A stretch of DNA of 64,000 bases from Hyalangium ruber. GTDB taxonomy: Bacteria; Myxococcota; Myxococcia; Myxococcales; Myxococcaceae. Position 1 is the first letter of the stretch. Each line of letters opens with the position of its first letter. A program made the translations under genes and the position numbers. The stretch lies in NCBI RefSeq assembly GCF_034259325.1, contig NZ_JAXIVS010000004.1, positions 434,001-498,000 on the forward strand, in the 5' to 3' direction. The notes beneath the pieces are model-generated. The model was not told the origin of the DNA. It worked only from the letters and a program-made list of their open reading frames with translations, and did not search any database. Shown here in pieces: positions 50,711 through 60,525 of this stretch.

Positions 50711-52927
50711 CTAACCCTCGTCGTCCCCCGCGGCGGGGAAGGACAACGCTCCGTCTCCGCTGAGGACGTACTGGCGGGCCGTGGGGTCCTCGGGGAACTT
50801 CTGGAGCGTCTCCACCCGCGCGCGGCGGACGGCGTCGGCGATGGGCAAGCGCAGCAAGAGGTCGCGGTGCAGCGCGGCCATGAAGGCCGTGCCCGCCTCG
50901 GCGCTCGGCATGTCGAAGGCCCCCACGAAGGCGCCCACGCCCACCTGGGTCGCCAGGTCCATGAAGCCCTCGCGCCCCTCGAAGAGGGAAACCCGGGAGT
51001 TCGGCACGGGCAGCCGCTGGTAGCCCCTCGCTCCGGCGTGTACGCCGAACGCATGGGGGACAAAGGCCGAGGAGGGGGCGTTCACGACCAGGAAGGGCAG
51101 CTGGCCCCGGTCGAGGACCGAGCGGAGGGCGCCCGAGGACAGCTCCATGGCCCCGGGAAGCTCCAGGTAGAGCTCGCCGTCCACCTGACCCACGCCTCCT
51201 GTGTAGTGCAGGAGGTCCGGCAGCTCCCGGTCCAGCTCCGCCATGACGCGGTTGAACATCGCGTCCTCTCCTCGCAGCACCGTGCAGGAGATCCCCAGCG
51301 AACGCCCGTACAGGCGAGCGAGCGCGTCAATCTCTTGCCGCGCGCCGCCACTGGTCGACCCACCTCCCTCGATGAGGAGGACGCGGGGGGAGGAGCGAAC
51401 CCGTGGAGTTCCCCGCGCCTGACGCGCGACGCCCACCGGAGCACGCACCACCTTCCTCGCCAGGGCCACGGGCGCGTCCCGAAGCGGGAGCAACTCCCAG
51501 GGGAAGCGCGCCAGCTCCGGAGCGCCATGCAGCACGAGCGGCGCCTGCGGTGAGACGCTGGGAGCGCCCAGCGCCTCGAGCACGGGGCCCGGCAGGTACT
51601 TCGCGAAGAGCTTGGGGACGTGGGTGTAGAGCCAGGCGTGAGACTTCGCGCCCTCTTCCAGTGCCCGCTTCAGGGACAGCCACAGGTCCTCGGTCAATGC
51701 CGAGGGCGCGACGCCCTGCACCGTGGACTCCGGCTTGCCCTGGATCAGCCGGAGCTGGAGCCTGCCTTCCGCGGACTCGAGGAACAGGTGCTGCGGCTCG
51801 ATGGAGGCAGCGGTCCGGGTCGCGGCGGGCTGGGGCACCGCGGGAGCGGCCTGGGGCACGGGCCCGGCGGAAAGAGTGGCCTCGTCCTCCGTGCTCTCCT
51901 CGGAGGGGTGGGAGACGCCCAGCGGCTCGAGCAGCCGGGACAGGAGACCGCCGGGGGATTGCGGTACGGGGCTCGGAGCTCGTGCCGGAACCCTGGAGTC
52001 GCTGGGGTGCGGCGCGGGGATGGGAGGCGCCACGGGAGCGGCCATGTTCTGCGGCACCACCTTCATCTGCGCAGGGGACTCCACAGCGACCGGCTTGGGA
52101 GTCACCGCGTCCTTCAAGGCCCGCAGGAAGAGGGGCACCTCCTCGTGCTTCCCACTCGTATAGGGGATGACCCGGATGCGCGCCGTGCGCCAGAGCACGT
52201 CTCGCTCCACCGGGCCCAGGTCCGTCATCAGCGCGTAGCGCTCGGGGACATAGCCCCGGAAGTGCGTGAGCTGTCGGTCCATCAGCAAGCGGAAGTCCGG
52301 ATCCGACAGCGAGTAGCCCACGAAGAACAGGGCCTTGGTGAGCAGCAGGCCCGTGAAGACCTCGTTGAAGGCGGGGTTGGCGTGGATGATTTCGCTGTAG
52401 TCGCGCGAGGTGAGCACCACCGTCTCGGGCCGGTCGATGTCGCCGTGCGCCTTGAGGATGAACGGCCCACCGTTGAAGAGCAGCCCGCCCAGCGCCTCGG
52501 TGTCCTTGTGGGTGAGCGTCTTGGGATAGGCGCCCTTCTCGGCCGCGTACGCCCGCTCCAGCAGCTTGTCGTAGTTGGTCGTCACCCAGGCACTGAAGGG
52601 CAGCTGCATCAGCGTCTGATGCACTGCCGGTAGCGCCTCCTTGTCGCCGCGCAGCTTGTCGGTGAGGAACTGGTGGTAGGCCGCGCCCAGCTCCTCCTTG
52701 CAGAAGTCGGCCACCTCCAGGAGCTTGCCTTGCTCCACGAGCCTCTGGAGCTCCGCCTGATGGGTCTCCCCCTCTGGCAGCGCGGCGACCATGTCGTCGA
52801 CGACCTCCAGCAGCAGCTTGCGCCAAGTGGGCAGCCCCGCCGCGGACGACAGGCCCGCGCCGACGAACACCACGCACCGGCCCTGCTGGATGTAGCGGAC
52901 GAGCAACCCGGGAGGCTTGGGAGTCAT
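50711..52927 (-). CDS. SIR2-family domain fused to a degenerate CHAT-like domain
   Basis: 738 residues, no signal peptide or membrane helix. The N-terminal part (about 8-270) is a SIR2_2-type NAD-binding domain: VGAGLSSAAG (22-31), TTNYDKLLE (116-124), His 161 in KAHGDID and FVGYSLSDPDFRLL (202-215). A Pro-rich linker (275-380) joins a C-terminal region with CHAT-like features: FPWELLPL (475-482), LLHYTGG (572-578), VVNAPSS (614-620) and ADAVRRARVETLQ near the end. The CHAT His of GHG and the Cys of NAC are Gly and Pro, so protease activity is doubtful. SIR2 NADases serve antiphage defence; a defence role is inferred. The ATG at 52927 was chosen although no clear SD precedes it; an in-frame GTG lies 7 codons upstream. 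Confidence 0.78.
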   Translation of the reverse strand: MTPKPPGLLVRYIQQGRCVVFVGAGLSSAAGLPTWRKLLLEVVDDMVAALPEGETHQAELQRLVEQGKLLEVADFCKEELGAAYHQFLTDKLRGDKEALPAVHQTLMQLPFSAWVTTNYDKLLERAYAAEKGAYPKTLTHKDTEALGGLLFNGGPFILKAHGDIDRPETVVLTSRDYSEIIHANPAFNEVFTGLLLTKALFFVGYSLSDPDFRLLMDRQLTHFRGYVPERYALMTDLGPVERDVLWRTARIRVIPYTSGKHEEVPLFLRALKDAVTPKPVAVESPAQMKVVPQNMAAPVAPPIPAPHPSDSRVPARAPSPVPQSPGGLLSRLLEPLGVSHPSEESTEDEATLSAGPVPQAAPAVPQPAATRTAASIEPQHLFLESAEGRLQLRLIQGKPESTVQGVAPSALTEDLWLSLKRALEEGAKSHAWLYTHVPKLFAKYLPGPVLEALGAPSVSPQAPLVLHGAPELARFPWELLPLRDAPVALARKVVRAPVGVARQARGTPRVRSSPRVLLIEGGGSTSGGARQEIDALARLYGRSLGISCTVLRGEDAMFNRVMAELDRELPDLLHYTGGVGQVDGELYLELPGAMELSSGALRSVLDRGQLPFLVVNAPSSAFVPHAFGVHAGARGYQRLPVPNSRVSLFEGREGFMDLATQVGVGAFVGAFDMPSAEAGTAFMAALHRDLLLRLPIADAVRRARVETLQKFPEDPTARQYVLSGDGALSFPAAGDDEG

Positions 52928-53060
52928 ATAAGGATAACGATCGACCACCGGACGCCTGCTTGCCAACCACGCTCCCACACTTCGTGCGCGAACCTGGCCG
53001 GAGGGCCCTGGCACAGGGTCACGGCGCTTGGGCAGAATGAGGCAACCCAGGAGGGTCTCC

Positions 53061-54680
53061 GTGCCGGTGCTGCAGCTCATCATGAACCCCGGACTGTCCG
53101 ACGAGCAGGTCTTCCCCCTCGGCCCGGGCAGCACGCTCATCGGCCGAGACCCGGAGAACCAGGTCTCCATCCTCCACAAGAGCCTGTCGCGCCATCACGC
53201 CCGGCTCGAGACCTCCCATGGCAAGGTGGTCCTGACCGACCTGGACAGCAAGAACGGCACCTTCATCCGCGGCACCCGCGTGAAAGCGAGCTGCGAGCTG
53301 CAGCCCGGCGACACCTTCACCTGTGGGGCGGTCCACTTCCGACTCGTGGCCCAGAGCGTGGAGCAAGTGGTCAACCCCACGATGACCCACACCGCCCCCA
53401 CGCTCTCGCAGGTGAGCATGCAGGAGCTGCTGGGCGGCCTGGGCCTGGAGGGCTCGCGCACCTCGGCGCTCAAGCTCAGCGCCCTGGCCGAGGCCGAGCG
53501 CGGGCGGGACAAGCTGCAGATCCTCCTCAAGGTCAGCCAGCTGCTCTCCTCGCCGGGCACCATCGACAGCCTGATGGAGCGCTCGCTGAACCTGGTGTTC
53601 CAGATCCTTGAGGTGGACCGGGCGGTCATCCTCCTGGTGGAGCCGCGCACAGGGGCGCTGCTGCCTCGGGTGACGCGGACCTCGGAGGAGGTCAAGAGCC
53701 CCGGGCAAATCTACAGCAAGCACATCGTCAACTACGTGCAGCAGCACGGCGTGGCGGCGCTGTTCTCCGACGCGCGGCTGGACCCTCGGCTGGAGACGTC
53801 CGAGTCCGTCATGCAGCAGTCCATCTACGCGGCCATGTGCGCGCCGCTCAAGGTGCGCGACGAGCTGCTGGGCGTGCTCTACGTGGACAACCTGCGAATT
53901 CCAGAGCGCTTCTCCCAGGAGGACCTCGAGTTCCTGTCCTCCTTCGCCAATCAGGTGGCCATCGCCCTGGAGAACTCGATGCTCTACCGGCGCATCGAGC
54001 AGGAGGCCGTCGTCCGCAGCAACTACCAGCGCTTCTTCCCGCCCAGCGCCCTCAAGCGGCTGGAGCAGTCCTCCTCGGGCATGGTGCTAGGCGCGAGAGA
54101 GACGGAGGTCACCACCCTCTTCTCGGACATCGCCGGCTTCACGCAGATGTCCTCGCGGATGCGGCCCATCGAAGTGGTGGACATGCTCAACGAGTACTTC
54201 CCCGTCATGGCGGACATCGTGTTCGAGCAGGAGGGGACGCTCGAGAAGTACATCGGCGATGCGCTGATGGCCATCTGGGGCGCGCCGTTCTCGCACCCGG
54301 ATGACGCGGACCGCGCGCTGTGGGCGGCGGTGCGGATGCAGCAGGAACTGGTACCGCTCAACGAGCGCCGGCGCGCCCGCCAGCAGGAGGAGATCCGGGT
54401 CCACATCGGCCTGAACACCGGCCCGGTGGCGGCGGGCAACATCGGCTCCAACCGCTTCCTGCAGTACGCCACCATCGGCGACACCACCAACGTGGCCAGC
54501 CGGGTGTGCAGCGCCGCCCAGTCGGGCGAGGTCCTCATCACCCAGAGCACCTATGACCGGCTGGTGGAGCGGCAGCGCTGGAAGCTGGAGCTGCTGCCCC
54601 CCGTCCAGGTCAAGGGCAAGGACGCGCCCCTGACGCTCTACCGGGTGGACTGGCGCGACATGAAGGCGCCAGGAACCTGA
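53061..54680 (+). CDS. FHA-GAF-class III adenylate cyclase
   Basis: 539 residues. FHA domain (about 20-90; GSTLIGRDPENQV, LSRHHARL, DSKNGTFIRG), GAF domain (about 165-320), and a full class III cyclase: metal Asp in LFSDIAGFT and IGDALMAIWG, adenine-selecting Lys in LEKYIGD and Asp in TIGDTTN, Asn/Arg in NVASRV. It should make cyclic AMP. The start is the GTG at 53061, which has AGGAGG 6 nt upstream; the ATG at 53037 lacks this. Divergent from the SIR2-CHAT gene, with a 133-nt gap. Confidence 0.92.
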   Translation: MPVLQLIMNPGLSDEQVFPLGPGSTLIGRDPENQVSILHKSLSRHHARLETSHGKVVLTDLDSKNGTFIRGTRVKASCELQPGDTFTCGAVHFRLVAQSVEQVVNPTMTHTAPTLSQVSMQELLGGLGLEGSRTSALKLSALAEAERGRDKLQILLKVSQLLSSPGTIDSLMERSLNLVFQILEVDRAVILLVEPRTGALLPRVTRTSEEVKSPGQIYSKHIVNYVQQHGVAALFSDARLDPRLETSESVMQQSIYAAMCAPLKVRDELLGVLYVDNLRIPERFSQEDLEFLSSFANQVAIALENSMLYRRIEQEAVVRSNYQRFFPPSALKRLEQSSSGMVLGARETEVTTLFSDIAGFTQMSSRMRPIEVVDMLNEYFPVMADIVFEQEGTLEKYIGDALMAIWGAPFSHPDDADRALWAAVRMQQELVPLNERRRARQQEEIRVHIGLNTGPVAAGNIGSNRFLQYATIGDTTNVASRVCSAAQSGEVLITQSTYDRLVERQRWKLELLPPVQVKGKDAPLTLYRVDWRDMKAPGT

Positions 54681-54689
54681 GCAGTCCCC

Positions 54690-55766
54690 TCACGCCCCCA
54701 GGGTGCGCCCACGCCGGGACAGGAGCGCCAGGAAGAGCGGCCCTCCGAGCAGCGCGGTGATGACACCGACAGGAGGCTCGGCGCCGACGAGGGCGAAGGA
54801 CAGGCGCGCCAGCAGGTCCGCCAGCACCAGGAACGCGGCGCCGCCCAGGGCGGACAGGGGCACCAGCAGGCGCTGGTCAGGCCCGAAGGCCAGCCGCAGC
54901 AGGTGCGGGACGATGAGGCCCACGAAGCCGATGAGTCCGGTGAGGGCCACGGCCCCCGCGACGCTGGCGCTGGTGGCCAGCAGCAACAGGCGCCGCGTGC
55001 GCGCCACGGGGACGCCCAGGGCCGCCGCGTCCTCGTCCCCGAGCGTCATGAGGTTCAGCCGTCCAGAGAGCGCGACCATCACCGCCAGCGCCCCACCCTG
55101 CAGCAGCGCGGCGAGCCCGAGCGTGGCGCCGCGCTCGTAGCCCAGCGCTCCGGCGAGCCAGTAGAGGATCTCCCCCAGGCGGTCCGGGTCCGACAGCGTC
55201 TTGACGAGGGTGATGGCGGCGGAGGCGAAGGCGTTGAAGACGACGCCGGTGAGCAGCGCGGCGTAAGGAGCGCGGCTGGAGTGCCCTCGGCTCGCGGCGA
55301 GCACGAAGAGCACGGAGGCCCCAGCTCCGACGAAGGCCAGCAGCGCGGGCGCGGACAGGCGCTCCAGGCCGCCCAGGAGGCTGGGAGCCACCTGCCCCAC
55401 GGTGGCCAAGCCGAGCGCCAGTGCGAGCGTCGCCCCCAGGGCCGCGCCGCCGGAGACTCCGAGCACGAACGGATCCGCGAGCGGGTTGCGCAGCAGCCCT
55501 TGCAAGGTGGCGCCCGAGGCCGCGAGCCCCGCACCGACGATGACGCCCAGCAGCGCGCGGGGCAGGCGCAGGGACCAGAAGATGACGGCGTCGGTGGACT
55601 GAGGGTCTCCGAGTGCGGCGGTCAGGGAGATGGGCTGCTCGCCAAAGCGCACGGCGATGGCGAAGGCGACGACCATCAGCGCCAGACCCGAGACGCACAG
55701 GCCCAGCACGCGCGAGGCGCGCAGCCTCCGGCCCAGGCCTGGCGACTGTCCCACCGAGAGGTTCAC
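54690..55766 (-). CDS. btuC: vitamin B12 ABC transporter permease BtuC
   Basis: 358 residues with about ten membrane helices. Typical FecCD/BtuC features: LRLPRALLGVIVGAGLAASG, GLLRNPLADPFVLGVSGGAA and LTGLIGFVGLIVPHLLRL. It carries cobalamin across the inner membrane with an ATPase, likely at 44994. GTG start overlaps the btuF stop by 4 nt. The cobalamin riboswitch at the head of the operon supports B12 over siderophore as substrate. Confidence 0.9.
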   Translation of the reverse strand: MNLSVGQSPGLGRRLRASRVLGLCVSGLALMVVAFAIAVRFGEQPISLTAALGDPQSTDAVIFWSLRLPRALLGVIVGAGLAASGATLQGLLRNPLADPFVLGVSGGAALGATLALALGLATVGQVAPSLLGGLERLSAPALLAFVGAGASVLFVLAASRGHSSRAPYAALLTGVVFNAFASAAITLVKTLSDPDRLGEILYWLAGALGYERGATLGLAALLQGGALAVMVALSGRLNLMTLGDEDAAALGVPVARTRRLLLLATSASVAGAVALTGLIGFVGLIVPHLLRLAFGPDQRLLVPLSALGGAAFLVLADLLARLSFALVGAEPPVGVITALLGGPLFLALLSRRGRTLGA

Positions 55767-56626
55767 TTGGGCATGTCCGGATGGAGCAGACCGAACAGCT
55801 CCTCCAGCCCCTTGCCCAACGAGGGCCCTGGCTGAAGCAGCGCGAACGAGGGCACCTCCACCCAGCGCGCGGAGGCCAGCCCGGAGAGGTTCCGGAGCTT
55901 CTCCTTGCCTACGTCCACGTCGGCCGCGTCCACCACCACATCCGGCCGGGCCCGCACGGCACGCTCCACGGAATAGACGGGGTAGGCCGAGCCGCTGTCG
56001 GCCGCGACGTTGACGGCGCCCGCGTCCCGCAGCAGCTCGTCGGCGAAGGAGCCGGGCCCAGCAACAACGAGCGGCTCGAAGCCGTAGACGAGCAACACCC
56101 GGGGAGTGGGCCGCTTCTTGGCCGCCTCCCGGATGCGCGTGCGCGTGGCCTCGATGCGCGAGACGAAGGCCTCGGCCTCCTTCGCGCGCCCCAGCGCCGT
56201 GCCCACCGCGCGCAGGGCGGCGAGCGTGTCGGCCACGGTGTGCAGCGGCAACAGGAGCACGGGTACGCCCAGCTCCGCCATGCGCTCCACGGGCCGCTGG
56301 TTGCCCGGGCCCGGCTGCACGAGCACGAGGTCCGGCTTGAGGGCGATGACGGCCTCCACGGATGGGTCCACGAAGCCACCCACGCGAGGCAGGGCCGCCA
56401 CGGCCTTGTCCTCATCGAAGCGGGACACGCCCACGAGCGTGTCCCCGGCGCCCATGGCGAGCACCATCTCCGTGAGGGAGGGAGCCAGCGTCACCACCCG
56501 CCGCACCTTCCCCTCGCGCTTGGGCCCCAGGAGGCGAGGCCCGCGTTGGGAGTCGGCCGCGTGCGCCGCGCGGGACAGGCCCAGCACGGCGAGCAGAAGC
56601 AGCGAGGCGATGCGCATCATCCACAT
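55763..56626 (-). CDS. btuF: periplasmic cobalamin-binding protein BtuF
   Basis: 287 residues. Signal peptide, then the BtuF/FhuD-like fold: RRVVTLAPSLTEMVLAMGAGDTLVGV, ALKPDLVLVQPG and YSVERAVRARPDVVVDAADVD. It captures cobalamin after BtuB and delivers it to BtuC. ATG at 56626 is preceded by AGGAGG; that site overlaps the stop codon of the propeller lipoprotein gene, 9 nt before the start, so the genes are tightly linked. Confidence 0.9.
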   Translation of the reverse strand: MWMMRIASLLLLAVLGLSRAAHAADSQRGPRLLGPKREGKVRRVVTLAPSLTEMVLAMGAGDTLVGVSRFDEDKAVAALPRVGGFVDPSVEAVIALKPDLVLVQPGPGNQRPVERMAELGVPVLLLPLHTVADTLAALRAVGTALGRAKEAEAFVSRIEATRTRIREAAKKRPTPRVLLVYGFEPLVVAGPGSFADELLRDAGAVNVAADSGSAYPVYSVERAVRARPDVVVDAADVDVGKEKLRNLSGLASARWVEVPSFALLQPGPSLGKGLEELFGLLHPDMPK

Positions 56627-56635
56627 GGAGACCTC

Positions 56636-58249
56636 CTACGGAATGGCGACGATATCTCCAACGAGGGAGAAGCCCGAGGAGCGCTGGCACGCGAGGATGG
56701 GCGGCTGGGAGCCCGTGCCCAGGCCCCGCCGCTCGATGAGCTGGTTGCCGGAGACCTCGACGACGAAGACGCGGCCCGCGGTGCTGTCGCCCAGGTAGGC
56801 GCGGTTGCCCACCACGGTGAAGCGGCTGATGGACGGCGGCGGGCAGGTGTCCCCGCTCCCCTCCGGGCAGGCGAGCGGATAGGTGGCCACCACCGCATCC
56901 TGCGCATCGAGCAGCACCAGACCGCCCTTCTCCACGGCCACCACGCGGGTGAAGGTGCCGTCATAGACGACCCGGCCGGAGCAGCTCACCAGCAGCTTGT
57001 CTCCCACGGGAGCGAGCCACCCCGGGTTGAGGCAGTCATCCCCCAGCGACAGGTACCGCACCTCCCGGCTCTGCGGGTCGATGCGGGCCACGAGCCCGGG
57101 GCCACCCGGGGAGAAGACGTTCGGGTCCAGGTTGTTGAGGGCGGTGTACAGCTTGCCGCCGTGCGCGACGATGCCCGAGGGCGAGGGGATGGGACTGCTG
57201 CCGGGGAAGGGCCGGAGCTCCTCGCCCGTGGGGAGCTGAATGAACGGGATGCTCAGCGCGGGCTCGAGCGGGTTGGCCAGATTCACGCGCGCCACCTTGC
57301 CGCCGGCGGACGTGTCTCCGCCCAGGTTGCCATAGAGCGAGACCCACAGGTCCGTGCCGAGCTTCGCCATGGCGAACGGGTTGGTGTTGGCGCCGAAGTC
57401 CACGCTGGCCACGGGCTGCAGCTGCAGCCCCTGCGGGAAGCGGGTGCCATCGGTGAGCGTCCCTGGCTCCGCCTGGCGCCGGAACACCAGGAGCGTGTTG
57501 CTCAGGGAGTTGATGACATAGACGTAGGGGTCATCCACGAGCATTTGGTTGGGCGCATCTCCCGTGGCCGGCGCGCCGGGCAGCGCCGCGTAGTCCACCA
57601 GCTTGGCCTCGCGCACCCGCTTGGCGGCGTCGAGCACCAGCAGCACGTCCTGCATGCGCGCCACCGACTGGGGCAGCTCGCCAATGGCCACGTTGGGGCC
57701 CTTGATGTCCGCGCCGGCCTGGAGCCCCACCACCTGGCCGGTGTTGAAGCAGGCGGCGACGATGTCATAGGTACACACGCCGTCGTGGCAGCTCTTCGCG
57801 TCCCCGCAGGCGTTGCCGCAGGCGCCGCAGTTGCTGGCGCTCGTCATCAGGTTCACGCACGCATTCCCGCAGCGCGTGGCACCCTCGGAGCAGTTCACCC
57901 GGCACTGGCCCGCCTCACACACGTTGCCCGGCCCGCAGGCGATGCCGCAGCTGCCGCAGTTGAGCGGGTCCGACGCGGTGGTGACGCACTGCCCTCCACA
58001 CGTTATCGCGCCGTCGCGACACTCGCAGTTGCCCTCCACGCACACCTGCCCCCGGCCGCACGCGGCGCCACAGGCGCCACAGTGGAGCGTCGCGCTGCGC
58101 GTGTCCTGGCAGGTATCGAAGCAGCTCGTGAGGCCTTCGCCACAGTCGGCGCCTGTCTCCGGACAGCCGCTCAGCAGCAATCCGAGGGCCGCCACCGTCA
58201 CTGCCAACCACCGGGGAGCCACGTGCTCCCTGCTCACATCCATGCTCAT
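56636..58249 (-). CDS. Cys-rich beta-propeller lipoprotein coupled to btuB
   Basis: 537 residues. Lipobox LLLSGCP (Cys 29). Residues about 30-175 hold repeated Cys units (LNCGSCGIACGPGNVC, SNCGACGNAC) like those of myxobacterial surface proteins. Residues about 180-537 form a YncE-like beta-propeller (DDPYVYVINSLSNTLLVF, GTDLWVSLYGN, VAHGGKLYTALNNLD, VGNRAYLGDSTAGRVFVV). The ATG overlaps the btuB stop (ATGA), so it is coupled to the receptor. In Bacteroides the propeller lipoprotein BtuG caps BtuB and binds B12 very tightly; a similar job here is my inference. I see no B12-ligand signature. Confidence 0.78.
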   Translation of the reverse strand: MSMDVSREHVAPRWLAVTVAALGLLLSGCPETGADCGEGLTSCFDTCQDTRSATLHCGACGAACGRGQVCVEGNCECRDGAITCGGQCVTTASDPLNCGSCGIACGPGNVCEAGQCRVNCSEGATRCGNACVNLMTSASNCGACGNACGDAKSCHDGVCTYDIVAACFNTGQVVGLQAGADIKGPNVAIGELPQSVARMQDVLLVLDAAKRVREAKLVDYAALPGAPATGDAPNQMLVDDPYVYVINSLSNTLLVFRRQAEPGTLTDGTRFPQGLQLQPVASVDFGANTNPFAMAKLGTDLWVSLYGNLGGDTSAGGKVARVNLANPLEPALSIPFIQLPTGEELRPFPGSSPIPSPSGIVAHGGKLYTALNNLDPNVFSPGGPGLVARIDPQSREVRYLSLGDDCLNPGWLAPVGDKLLVSCSGRVVYDGTFTRVVAVEKGGLVLLDAQDAVVATYPLACPEGSGDTCPPPSISRFTVVGNRAYLGDSTAGRVFVVEVSGNQLIERRGLGTGSQPPILACQRSSGFSLVGDIVAIP

Positions 58250-60225
58250 GGTGAATCCGTTCTGGGTTTTGGGGGTGTGGGGGGAGGGCCGCCGAACGCC
58301 GCCGCCAGCGTCACGTAGGCGGAGCGGCCCGGGAGGGGGTAGCCGTCGAGGTCCTCGGCGTGCGCGTCGAAGACATTCTTCAGCTCCACCGAGAGGGTCA
58401 GCTCGGGAGCGCGCCCGAAGCTGCTGGAGAGGCCGGCGTGGACGAACGTGCGTCCCGGAAGCTCCGCCTCCTCCGTGCGATTGACGTACTGGACCGACTG
58501 CGCCATCACCTCCACGCGCCCGGTGAGCCAGCGCGGGCCGCCGGACATGCGCGCGCTCAGCTTGTGGCGCGGCCGGTACGGCAGCTCCTTGAGGTAGTAG
58601 CGCGGGTCGTCCCGAAGGTTGCGCGAGACCAGCAGGGTGTAGCTCAGCGCCCCGGCCACCCACGGGTATGGACGCCACTCGCCCTCGGCCTCCAGCCCGG
58701 CCACGCTCGCGGCGGCGAAGTTGTAGGGCTTGGCGGCGAAGGGCGGGAACAGCTCGTAGGCGATGAGGTCCTCGTAGAGGCTGTAGAAGCCGCCCACGGA
58801 GGCCAGGGAGCGCTCCGTGCGGTGGACCACCGCCACGTCCGCGTACAGCACCCGCTCCGGGCGCAGCGCGGCATTGGGCAGCAGCAGCCCCTGGCGGATG
58901 TACAGCTCCAGGAAGGAGGGCGCGCGGTGCGACTGCCCCGCATTGGCGCGCAGCTCCAGGCCCGCTGGCAGCGTCAGCGTGGCGCCCACCTTCGGAGACA
59001 GCAGCGTGTATGAACCCGCGCGCTCCACACGCAGCGACGGCGCGAGGAGCAGCCGCCCTCCGGCGAGCACCAGCTCGTCCATCACCATGATGCTGGCCTG
59101 CCCCCGGCTCGGGCGAGTGGTGCCCACCGTGGCCTCCTCCACTCCAGAGACGTCCTCGCCCGACACGGTCAGCACCGCCGACACGCCGTGCCACCCTCCC
59201 AGCAGCGTGCGCGCCTCCAGCTCCACGCCTCCCACGCGCTGCGCCTGGGTGCCCTGGAGCGCCTGCGGACCGTTGGACAGGCTGAGGCGATCTCTCCGGA
59301 ACCAGGCACGCGCGGAGCCGCGCACCGAGCCCAGCTCACCCATGAGTCGCACGCTGGCCGAGCCCCGCCCGTTGCCCTGCCGCGCGTCGGGAATGGGGTT
59401 GGTCGCGGTGCCCGCCAGTCCCCGCTCGTCCAGGGACAGCTCGCCCAGCACGTCCACCTCGAAGTGCTCCCCTAGGGGGTGCCGCAGCCGCAGCATCCCG
59501 CCCGCTCCCCGCGCGTCGTTGTTCGTCCGGCGGCGCTCCTCGAGCGCATCTCCCGGCAGCGCGGGGCTCGTGTCGAAGAGGAAGGGAAAGTCTCCCGAGG
59601 AGCGTCCTCCGTGGAGCAGCACCAGCCCCTCGCCGCCCAGCACCGGGCCCGTCGCCGACAGCCACCCGAGCGCCGTGTCCCAGCTGCCGTAGGTGGCCTC
59701 TCCCGCCACACGGGCCGCCGCGTCAGGGCGCCGGGTGATGACGTTCACCACGCCGCCCAGCCCGCCCGAGCCGTAGCGCGCACCCACGCCGCCGCGCAGC
59801 ACCTCGAAGCGCTCCACCAACGCCAGCGGGACGCGCGAGAGGTCGGCGATTCCACCCGCGCCGTTGAGGGGAATGCCATCCAGCAGGACCAGGGTCCCGT
59901 TGGAGGAGGCCCCGCGCACCACCAGGTTCTTGCTCTGGCCGTAGCCGCCGCTGTCCTGCACCACCACGCCCGCGGAGGTGGAGAGCACCTCGGCGGCGTC
60001 CTTCGCCGCCCCACCGAAGTCGGCCGTCTCGATGACGGTGAGCGCACCGCTGGGGTCGCGCTGGCTCGCCGCGTCCGGAGGCTCCGGGGCCGCGGTCTCG
60101 CGAACCTCCACGGTGGGGACGGTGAAGACCTCACCCTCTGGCGCCGGAGCCTCTTCGGCCCGCGCCAGTCCGCCCATCATGAGCGCCAGGCACAAGCCCG
60201 GCGCGGCGAGGAATGACCGCCCCAT
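58246..60225 (-). CDS. btuB: TonB-dependent cobalamin receptor BtuB
   Basis: 659 residues. Signal peptide, TonB-box-like TVPTVEVRETA, plug domain with LVVRGASSNGTLVLLDGIPL and LVERFEVLRGGVGARYGSG, then a 22-strand-type barrel ending in an aromatic-bounded final strand AYVTLAAAFGG. It takes cobalamin across the outer membrane with energy from TonB. The ATG at 60225 sits behind GGAAGG and a riboswitch. The stop overlaps the next gene start. Confidence 0.93.
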   Translation of the reverse strand: MGRSFLAAPGLCLALMMGGLARAEEAPAPEGEVFTVPTVEVRETAAPEPPDAASQRDPSGALTVIETADFGGAAKDAAEVLSTSAGVVVQDSGGYGQSKNLVVRGASSNGTLVLLDGIPLNGAGGIADLSRVPLALVERFEVLRGGVGARYGSGGLGGVVNVITRRPDAAARVAGEATYGSWDTALGWLSATGPVLGGEGLVLLHGGRSSGDFPFLFDTSPALPGDALEERRRTNNDARGAGGMLRLRHPLGEHFEVDVLGELSLDERGLAGTATNPIPDARQGNGRGSASVRLMGELGSVRGSARAWFRRDRLSLSNGPQALQGTQAQRVGGVELEARTLLGGWHGVSAVLTVSGEDVSGVEEATVGTTRPSRGQASIMVMDELVLAGGRLLLAPSLRVERAGSYTLLSPKVGATLTLPAGLELRANAGQSHRAPSFLELYIRQGLLLPNAALRPERVLYADVAVVHRTERSLASVGGFYSLYEDLIAYELFPPFAAKPYNFAAASVAGLEAEGEWRPYPWVAGALSYTLLVSRNLRDDPRYYLKELPYRPRHKLSARMSGGPRWLTGRVEVMAQSVQYVNRTEEAELPGRTFVHAGLSSSFGRAPELTLSVELKNVFDAHAEDLDGYPLPGRSAYVTLAAAFGGPPPTPPKPRTDSP

Positions 60226-60240
60226 GCTCCGCCTTCCGCT

Positions 60241-60284
60241 CTCTCCATCGAAGAGAGAAGGCCAGCCGGCGTCCTTATAAGGAC
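60241..60284 (-). promoter_or_regulatory. expression platform of the cobalamin riboswitch
   Basis: Between the B12 box and the btuB start lie GTCCTTATAAGGAC, a perfect 14-bp palindrome (60271-60284), and a CTCTC/GAGAG stem (60241-60257) just upstream of the ribosome site. There is no T-run, so control is more likely by masking the ribosome site than by termination. Confidence 0.5.
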
Positions 60285-60290
60285 GACCGA

Positions 60291-60502
60291 ACCTCTGGGC
60301 AGGTCTCCTGGCTCATGGGCTCCGGCATGAGGGCGCACGCTGCGCCTCTCCGGAAGGAGCCCTCTCCCTTCCCCCGGAGCACCGCTCCAGAGTGGGAACT
60401 GCCGAGGACCCCGGCCCTGACCGACAGGGCTGCCCACTCACAGTGGCGGGACCGCGCCGGACTTCCACCGGCTTCCCTCTTGCGTGCCCGACGTGGGCAC
60501 CC
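60291..60502 (-). promoter_or_regulatory. cobalamin riboswitch upstream of btuB
   Basis: On the minus strand the B12 box reads GAGCCAGGAGACCTGCCC (60297-60314). Also present are CCGGTGGAAGTCCGG (60457-60471), GTCCCGCCACTGTGA (60438-60452) and GGTGCCC (60495-60501), the conserved core of the AdoCbl/cobalamin class. Cobalamin binding should repress btuB and the genes behind it. The core begins only 16 nt after the stop of the FHA gene. Confidence 0.95.
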
Positions 60503-60510
60503 AAAGGCGG

Positions 60511-60525
60511 GCCCCTTCTAGGGGC
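60511..60525 (-). terminator. short hairpin at the stop of the FHA gene
   Basis: GCCCCT-AGA-AGGGGC contains the stop codon TAG of the FHA gene. A 6-bp stem and no T-tract make it weak; it separates the FHA gene from the riboswitch. Confidence 0.35.

Follow-up and report, generated by a model that had tools for sequence, protein, structure and literature searches.

The closest described counterparts of the system considered here are BtuG1, BtuG2 and BtuG3 of Bacteroides, surface lipoproteins that capture vitamin B12 (PDB 8blw, 8bmx, 8ptf and 3dsm; PMC6143338, PMC10404256). The Bacteroides lid sits on BtuB and holds cobalamin in the central face of its disc; the lipid Cys is joined to the propeller by a linker that follows an extracellular loop of BtuB and is believed to be the lid's hinge (PMC10404256). 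When human gut genomes were searched, no BtuG homologues were found outside Bacteroidetes, and the Bacteroidetes lipoprotein export signal was described as exclusive to that group (PMC6143338). A BLASTP E value below 1e-10 to Bt BtuG1-3 served as a BtuG criterion in that study. In the present study a stretch of 64,000 nucleotides from the myxobacterium Hyalangium ruber (contig NZ_JAXIVS010000004.1, positions 434,001 to 498,000; hereafter the window) was analysed for a gene, P0001, located directly after btuB, whose product is a putative and, in our judgement, probable BtuG-like lid for the capture of B12. No matching papers were found in the open-licence library searched.

Like BtuG, the P0001 product is a predicted lipidated seven-bladed beta-propeller of the YVTN type, encoded beside btuB in an operon with a cobalamin riboswitch, and its blade order is the same over the part compared (BtuG1 residues 41-203). 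A stalkless form in related families (type D, described below) has the size of BtuG and apparently the same chain start, as judged from the N-terminal side, to which that comparison was confined. Unlike BtuG, these proteins belong to Myxococcota, those of type A (including the window protein) carry a stalk of Cys modules, and the chain ends of types A, B and C are shifted; the window protein lacks the Bacteroidetes export signal, and its binding of cobalamin, which in BtuG is very tight, is putative. XusB of Bacteroides (PDB 9hqk, PMC13142918) is likewise a propeller lipoprotein with a TonB-dependent transporter, but its ligand is a siderophore and its fold match is weaker, whereas the Myxococcota family has the cobalamin riboswitch and btuFC. 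YncE of E. coli (3vgz), annotated as 'PQQ-dependent catabolism-associated', is also a YVTN propeller of seven blades and has a TonB-dependent receptor (YncD/PqqU) as its partner, but it is no lipoprotein lid as far as is known, has another substrate context and gives a weaker profile match. The family names available for the window protein, NCBIfam NF041328 (MXAN_6577-like) and Pfam STIG1, cover the stalk only and are silent on the propeller and on B12.

Operon structure in the window

The features of the operon and of the lipoprotein are as follows.

60281-60519, minus strand: cobalamin riboswitch aptamer, 5' of btuB (Rfam RF00174, 61.7 bits, E 7.6e-13)
58246-60225, minus strand: btuB, TonB-dependent outer-membrane receptor, 659 aa (Pfam Plug and TonB_dep_Rec)
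58246-58249, minus strand: ATGA, overlap of the btuB stop and the propeller start, translational coupling (from the sequence)
56636-58249, minus strand: propeller lipoprotein gene (P0001), 537 aa, type A permutation (from sequence, profiles and model)
58166-58249, minus strand: lipoprotein signal peptide, residues 1-28, with lipobox LSGC and Cys29 (from the sequence)
57773-58165, minus strand: lipid Cys29 and Cys-rich stalk of three 8-Cys STIG1-like modules, residues 29-159 (Pfam STIG1, NCBIfam NF041328)
56639-57772, minus strand: seven-bladed beta-propeller, residues 160-537 (AlphaFold2, Foldseek, VIA)
55763-56626, minus strand: btuF, periplasmic B12-binding protein (Peripla_BP_2, E 9.9e-32)
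54690-55766, minus strand: btuC, inner-membrane permease, GTG start (FecCD, E 4.3e-77)

The order riboswitch, btuB, propeller lipoprotein, btuF and btuC on the minus strand is that given by the initial annotation and was borne out by the Rfam and Pfam matches, the riboswitch match extending 17 nt past the end of the region then described. Two junctions reported there were also found as described: the propeller-gene ATG (58249) shares four nucleotides with the TGA of btuB as ATGA, and the propeller-gene stop TAG (56636-56638) merges into TAGGAGG, the ribosome site 5' of the btuF ATG (56626). A further overlap of 4 nt joins btuF and btuC. No btuD for the ATP-binding subunit was found beside btuC (54690-55766), and the ATPase is therefore encoded elsewhere or shared. 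Because the Btu proteins of the window did not reach their equivalog cut-offs (BtuB scored 128.5 bits against TIGR01779, for which at least 599.7 bits are needed), the Btu names rest on the riboswitch, on gene order and on the PDB match of the receptor profile. This profile, constructed from 33 BtuB sequences, had E. coli BtuB as its best PDB match (E 7e-46) and matched Bacteroides BtuB1 with an E value of 7e-32.

Linkage of the propeller gene to btuB in Myxococcota

In the nearest relatives the propeller gene lies directly after btuB, with btuF and btuC commonly next in line; most related loci share the 4-nt ATGA overlap, and a lipobox is present in nearly all relatives. In 29 of 37 genomes btuB is closely preceded by a cobalamin riboswitch, about 2 kb ahead of the propeller gene. 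Among 30 btuB loci chosen across the phylum by the BtuB profile alone, 29 had a propeller open reading frame immediately downstream, and overall such a frame lay just 3' of btuB in 82 of 83 btuB loci, most of which had been picked via the propeller first. Because of these two counts the adjacency is not due to chance, and the linkage, which the initial annotation had proposed to check, was conserved in almost every Myxococcota family tested. Riboswitches 5' of btuB were found alike in types A, B, C and D, as were accompanying btuF and btuC genes.

One locus of the 83 (L122, G075:C268) showed no recognisable propeller, but its downstream sequence extended for about 540 nt only. At L071:164-4469 (G033:C176) btuB is flanked by propeller genes on both sides, and at L067:6025-8738 (G010:C79) btuC comes directly after an additional propeller gene, which is stalked, without btuB on the stretch examined; the same genome has a btuB-linked propeller copy on another contig (L050). 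An extra cobalamin riboswitch occurs about 90-130 nt 3' of the propeller gene at G028:C1:11409000-11409220 and G030:C6:231428-231655, so that downstream genes may have their own switch there. In the window, the operon is followed at its 3' side by genes for a SIR2-like and CHAT-domain protein (50711-53179, minus strand) and for an FHA-GAF-adenylate cyclase (53028-54680, plus strand), the reading frames of which overlap at their 5' ends.

Domain structure and predicted fold

The Cys-rich part of the window protein matched Pfam STIG1 with 48.9 bits and NCBIfam NF041328 with 141 bits (cut-off, 100). Stalked relatives contain 25 Cys residues, namely one lipid Cys and three modules of eight, and in a few relatives the number of modules is one or five. 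Directly after the lipobox the window protein reads CPETG, and the Bacteroidetes lipoprotein export signal was not found at this position. For the approximately 378 residues after the Cys part, no Pfam propeller model was matched above its cut-off with the single sequence; support for the propeller was obtained from profiles and structure prediction, single-sequence searches having given none.

AlphaFold2 models, each built from five sequences only, showed a propeller both for the full mature protein (mean predicted local distance difference test score, pLDDT, 64) and for the propeller alone (predicted template modelling score 0.76, mean pLDDT 69). From the strand order of the model seven blades were counted, blade 1 being closed by the C-terminal strand. 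When the models were compared with the PDB by Foldseek, BtuG ranked first for both, with E values of 1.5e-11 for the full protein and 2.3e-10 for the propeller, for which the top match was the BtuG entry 8ptf. E. coli YncE was also among the structural matches, and XusB appeared at Foldseek rank 50. The lipidated, Cys-rich propeller protein described by the initial annotation was thus recovered in all its parts, with lipobox LSGC, STIG1-like modules and a predicted seven-bladed fold, and its BtuG-like reading stood with respect to fold and linkage.

Sequence relation to BtuG

A profile of type A propellers searched against the PDB matched the YVTN propeller 1l0q with an E value of 7e-10 and BtuG1 with 0.001, the latter among other propellers, and YncE with 0.07. 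With a profile of the stalkless type D, the only entries below an E value of 0.01 were 1l0q and three BtuG1 entries, which were matched at 3e-6 (3.4e-6 for the best) to 2e-5, only 1l0q being better. The comparison with BtuG1 was made over residues 41-203, read from HMMER alignments, the C-terminal half lying outside it. Aligned to the window family by hhalign, this part scored 39.7 in the best register and 30.0 in the next; in global alignment it scored 45.7, against 17-20 for other registers. From one blade to the next, BtuG1 and the window family show coinciding landmarks: GD..N ahead of a strand, GxVARxD, and GKLYV with GPG after it. For type D, the profile gave nearly equal scores in its two best local registers (34.2 and 33.8), and the register argument therefore rests on type A.

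From these alignments it is probable that the Myxococcota lids and BtuG descend from a common lid, although descent is not proven because all YVTN propellers share repeats. The initial annotation had taken the fusion of Cys repeats to a propeller as a separate solution to the same task; this part of its reading is disfavoured by the blade order held in common with BtuG1 and by the stalkless, BtuG-sized form in related families. The fusion with Cys repeats appears to be a derivative of a lid common to both.

Circular permutation and the stalk

Against distant Myxococcota, the propeller profile matched in two pieces of swapped order within one gene between btuB and btuF. Profiles were rotated through all positions and scored as a test of permutation. 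Type A controls scored best unrotated (cut 0), whereas the best cut was about 120-168 for five proteins (type B), 240 for two (type C) and 48-60 for another five (type D); types B, C and D gained 17-48 bits at the rotated cut, and single alignments then covered most of the model. In a common-register model the chain starts form four groups, A-D, with the chain ends of type D next to blade 2, those of B near the border of blades 4 and 5, those of C near the border of blades 5 and 6, and those of A, including the window protein, at blade 1. This classification leaves out the far families, which have propellers (profile matches, E of about 1e-6 to 1e-17).

Within family f3 the stalkless type B proteins of L101 and L103 (L101:1501-4532 and L103:1444-4706) are 38-51% identical to the stalked type A proteins of L065 and L070, and blastp aligned them in two pieces of swapped order with E values of 1e-31 to 1e-47. 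After each other, the nearest relatives of L101 and L103 are the type A proteins L065 and L070 of the same family, for which reason a gene swap was rejected as the origin of type B in f3. A rotated register arising from look-alike blades was rejected because type A peaks at cut 0 and B, C and D elsewhere, with nearly full-length alignments; such an artefact is also countered by close relatives, which blastp aligns in two strong pieces whose order is swapped.

A Cys stalk was present in all 52 type A proteins checked, the form in L099 being degenerate, and in none of 16 proteins of type B, C or D; these counts are non-independent because near relatives are included. In the A/B pair of f3, stalk and permutation change together. 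Mapped onto the BtuB tree, the four types require no fewer than five changes, and a tree constrained to unite all type B loci in a single clade was rejected (approximately unbiased test, p 0.0003). Permutation thus recurred, provided that btuB and the propeller gene travelled together.

Proposed mechanism and alternative explanations

According to the proposed mechanism, the lipoprotein would have its anchor in the outer membrane and be exposed on the surface; there the propeller disc would cap BtuB, bind the corrinoid in its central face and hand it to BtuB, import being completed by BtuF, BtuC and an ATPase encoded elsewhere. By analogy with the Bacteroides BtuB-BtuG complex, the lid may hinge in the same way, the position of the anchor on the rim differing between types. 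The simplest form would be type D, which has a short linker and the size of BtuG. Type A would attach at the blade neighbouring that of type D and has a disulfide-rich stalk, the Cys modules of which probably span the extra distance from anchor to disc. A further proposal, to which we give about even chances, is that the lipid-anchored hinge was moved round the disc by repeated permutation and that the stalk of disulfide modules was gained or lost in step, keeping the disc on BtuB.

Several observations weigh against a BtuG-like lid. Blade 2 is poorly modelled and the models are shallow (five sequences, pLDDT 64 and 69). VIA structural alignment gave a Z score of 25.2 with the YVTN propeller 1l0q and of 23.6 with BtuG1, and the BtuG chains as a whole (21.2-23.6) were tied with generic propellers; there is thus a clear propeller fold, but BtuG is not singled out by structure on its own. 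A phmmer search of the PDB with the window protein gave nothing significant for the propeller and no BtuG at E up to 1. Loop conservation was slightly higher on the expected ligand face, but 161 of 5000 shuffles gave a difference as large, and because this test is weak no ligand site is claimed. Moreover, lipoproteins outside Bacteroidota often face the periplasm.

The last point leads to an alternative in which the propeller, lying beneath BtuB at the inner leaflet, passes corrinoid on from the receptor to BtuF. Many outer-membrane lipoproteins of Gram-negative bacteria face the periplasm by default; in most loci the gene lies between btuB and btuF, disulfide-rich modules fit the periplasm as well as the surface, and YncE of E. 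coli, a structural match, is a periplasmic propeller encoded next to its receptor YncD. The closest specific resemblance, however, is to the surface-exposed BtuG, and a long stalk with a movable anchor is more easily explained by a lid that reaches round the barrel, so that a periplasmic relay is considered unlikely. That the propeller is instead a passenger outside transport, kept by chance or for another surface function, is quite improbable: YVTN-type propellers are common in many unrelated roles, and we know of no experiment, but 29 of the 30 btuB loci picked blind to the propeller carry the gene, in many families and with recurrent permutations. A lid for a siderophore or haem, merely co-regulated with B12 uptake, would have a precedent in XusB, also a propeller lipoprotein with a TonB-dependent transporter and found among the Foldseek matches. 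A receptor profile nearest to E. coli BtuB speaks against such a ligand, as do cobalamin riboswitches and btuF and btuC beside the gene in types A-D; because of the riboswitch and btuFC a XusB-type siderophore role was set aside, and another ligand is regarded as very improbable. A BtuG-like lid for B12 capture is accordingly retained as the probable function of the window gene.

Significance

BtuG has been described as exclusive to Bacteroidetes, a restriction attributed to competition in the gut; with a lid of homologous appearance next to btuB across Myxococcota, B12 uptake under a propeller cap would be a much more general phenomenon. Circular permutation is found here to recur among orthologous gene neighbourhoods, and one family contains both members of an A/B pair. 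Four permutations at one operon position amount to a natural experiment in which the disc was kept and the anchor moved, and by which the hinge model of BtuB-BtuG can be tested. If the proposal of a moved hinge is true, the Myxococcota proteins would form a natural series showing that the B12 transporter requires the face of the propeller and not its chain ends.

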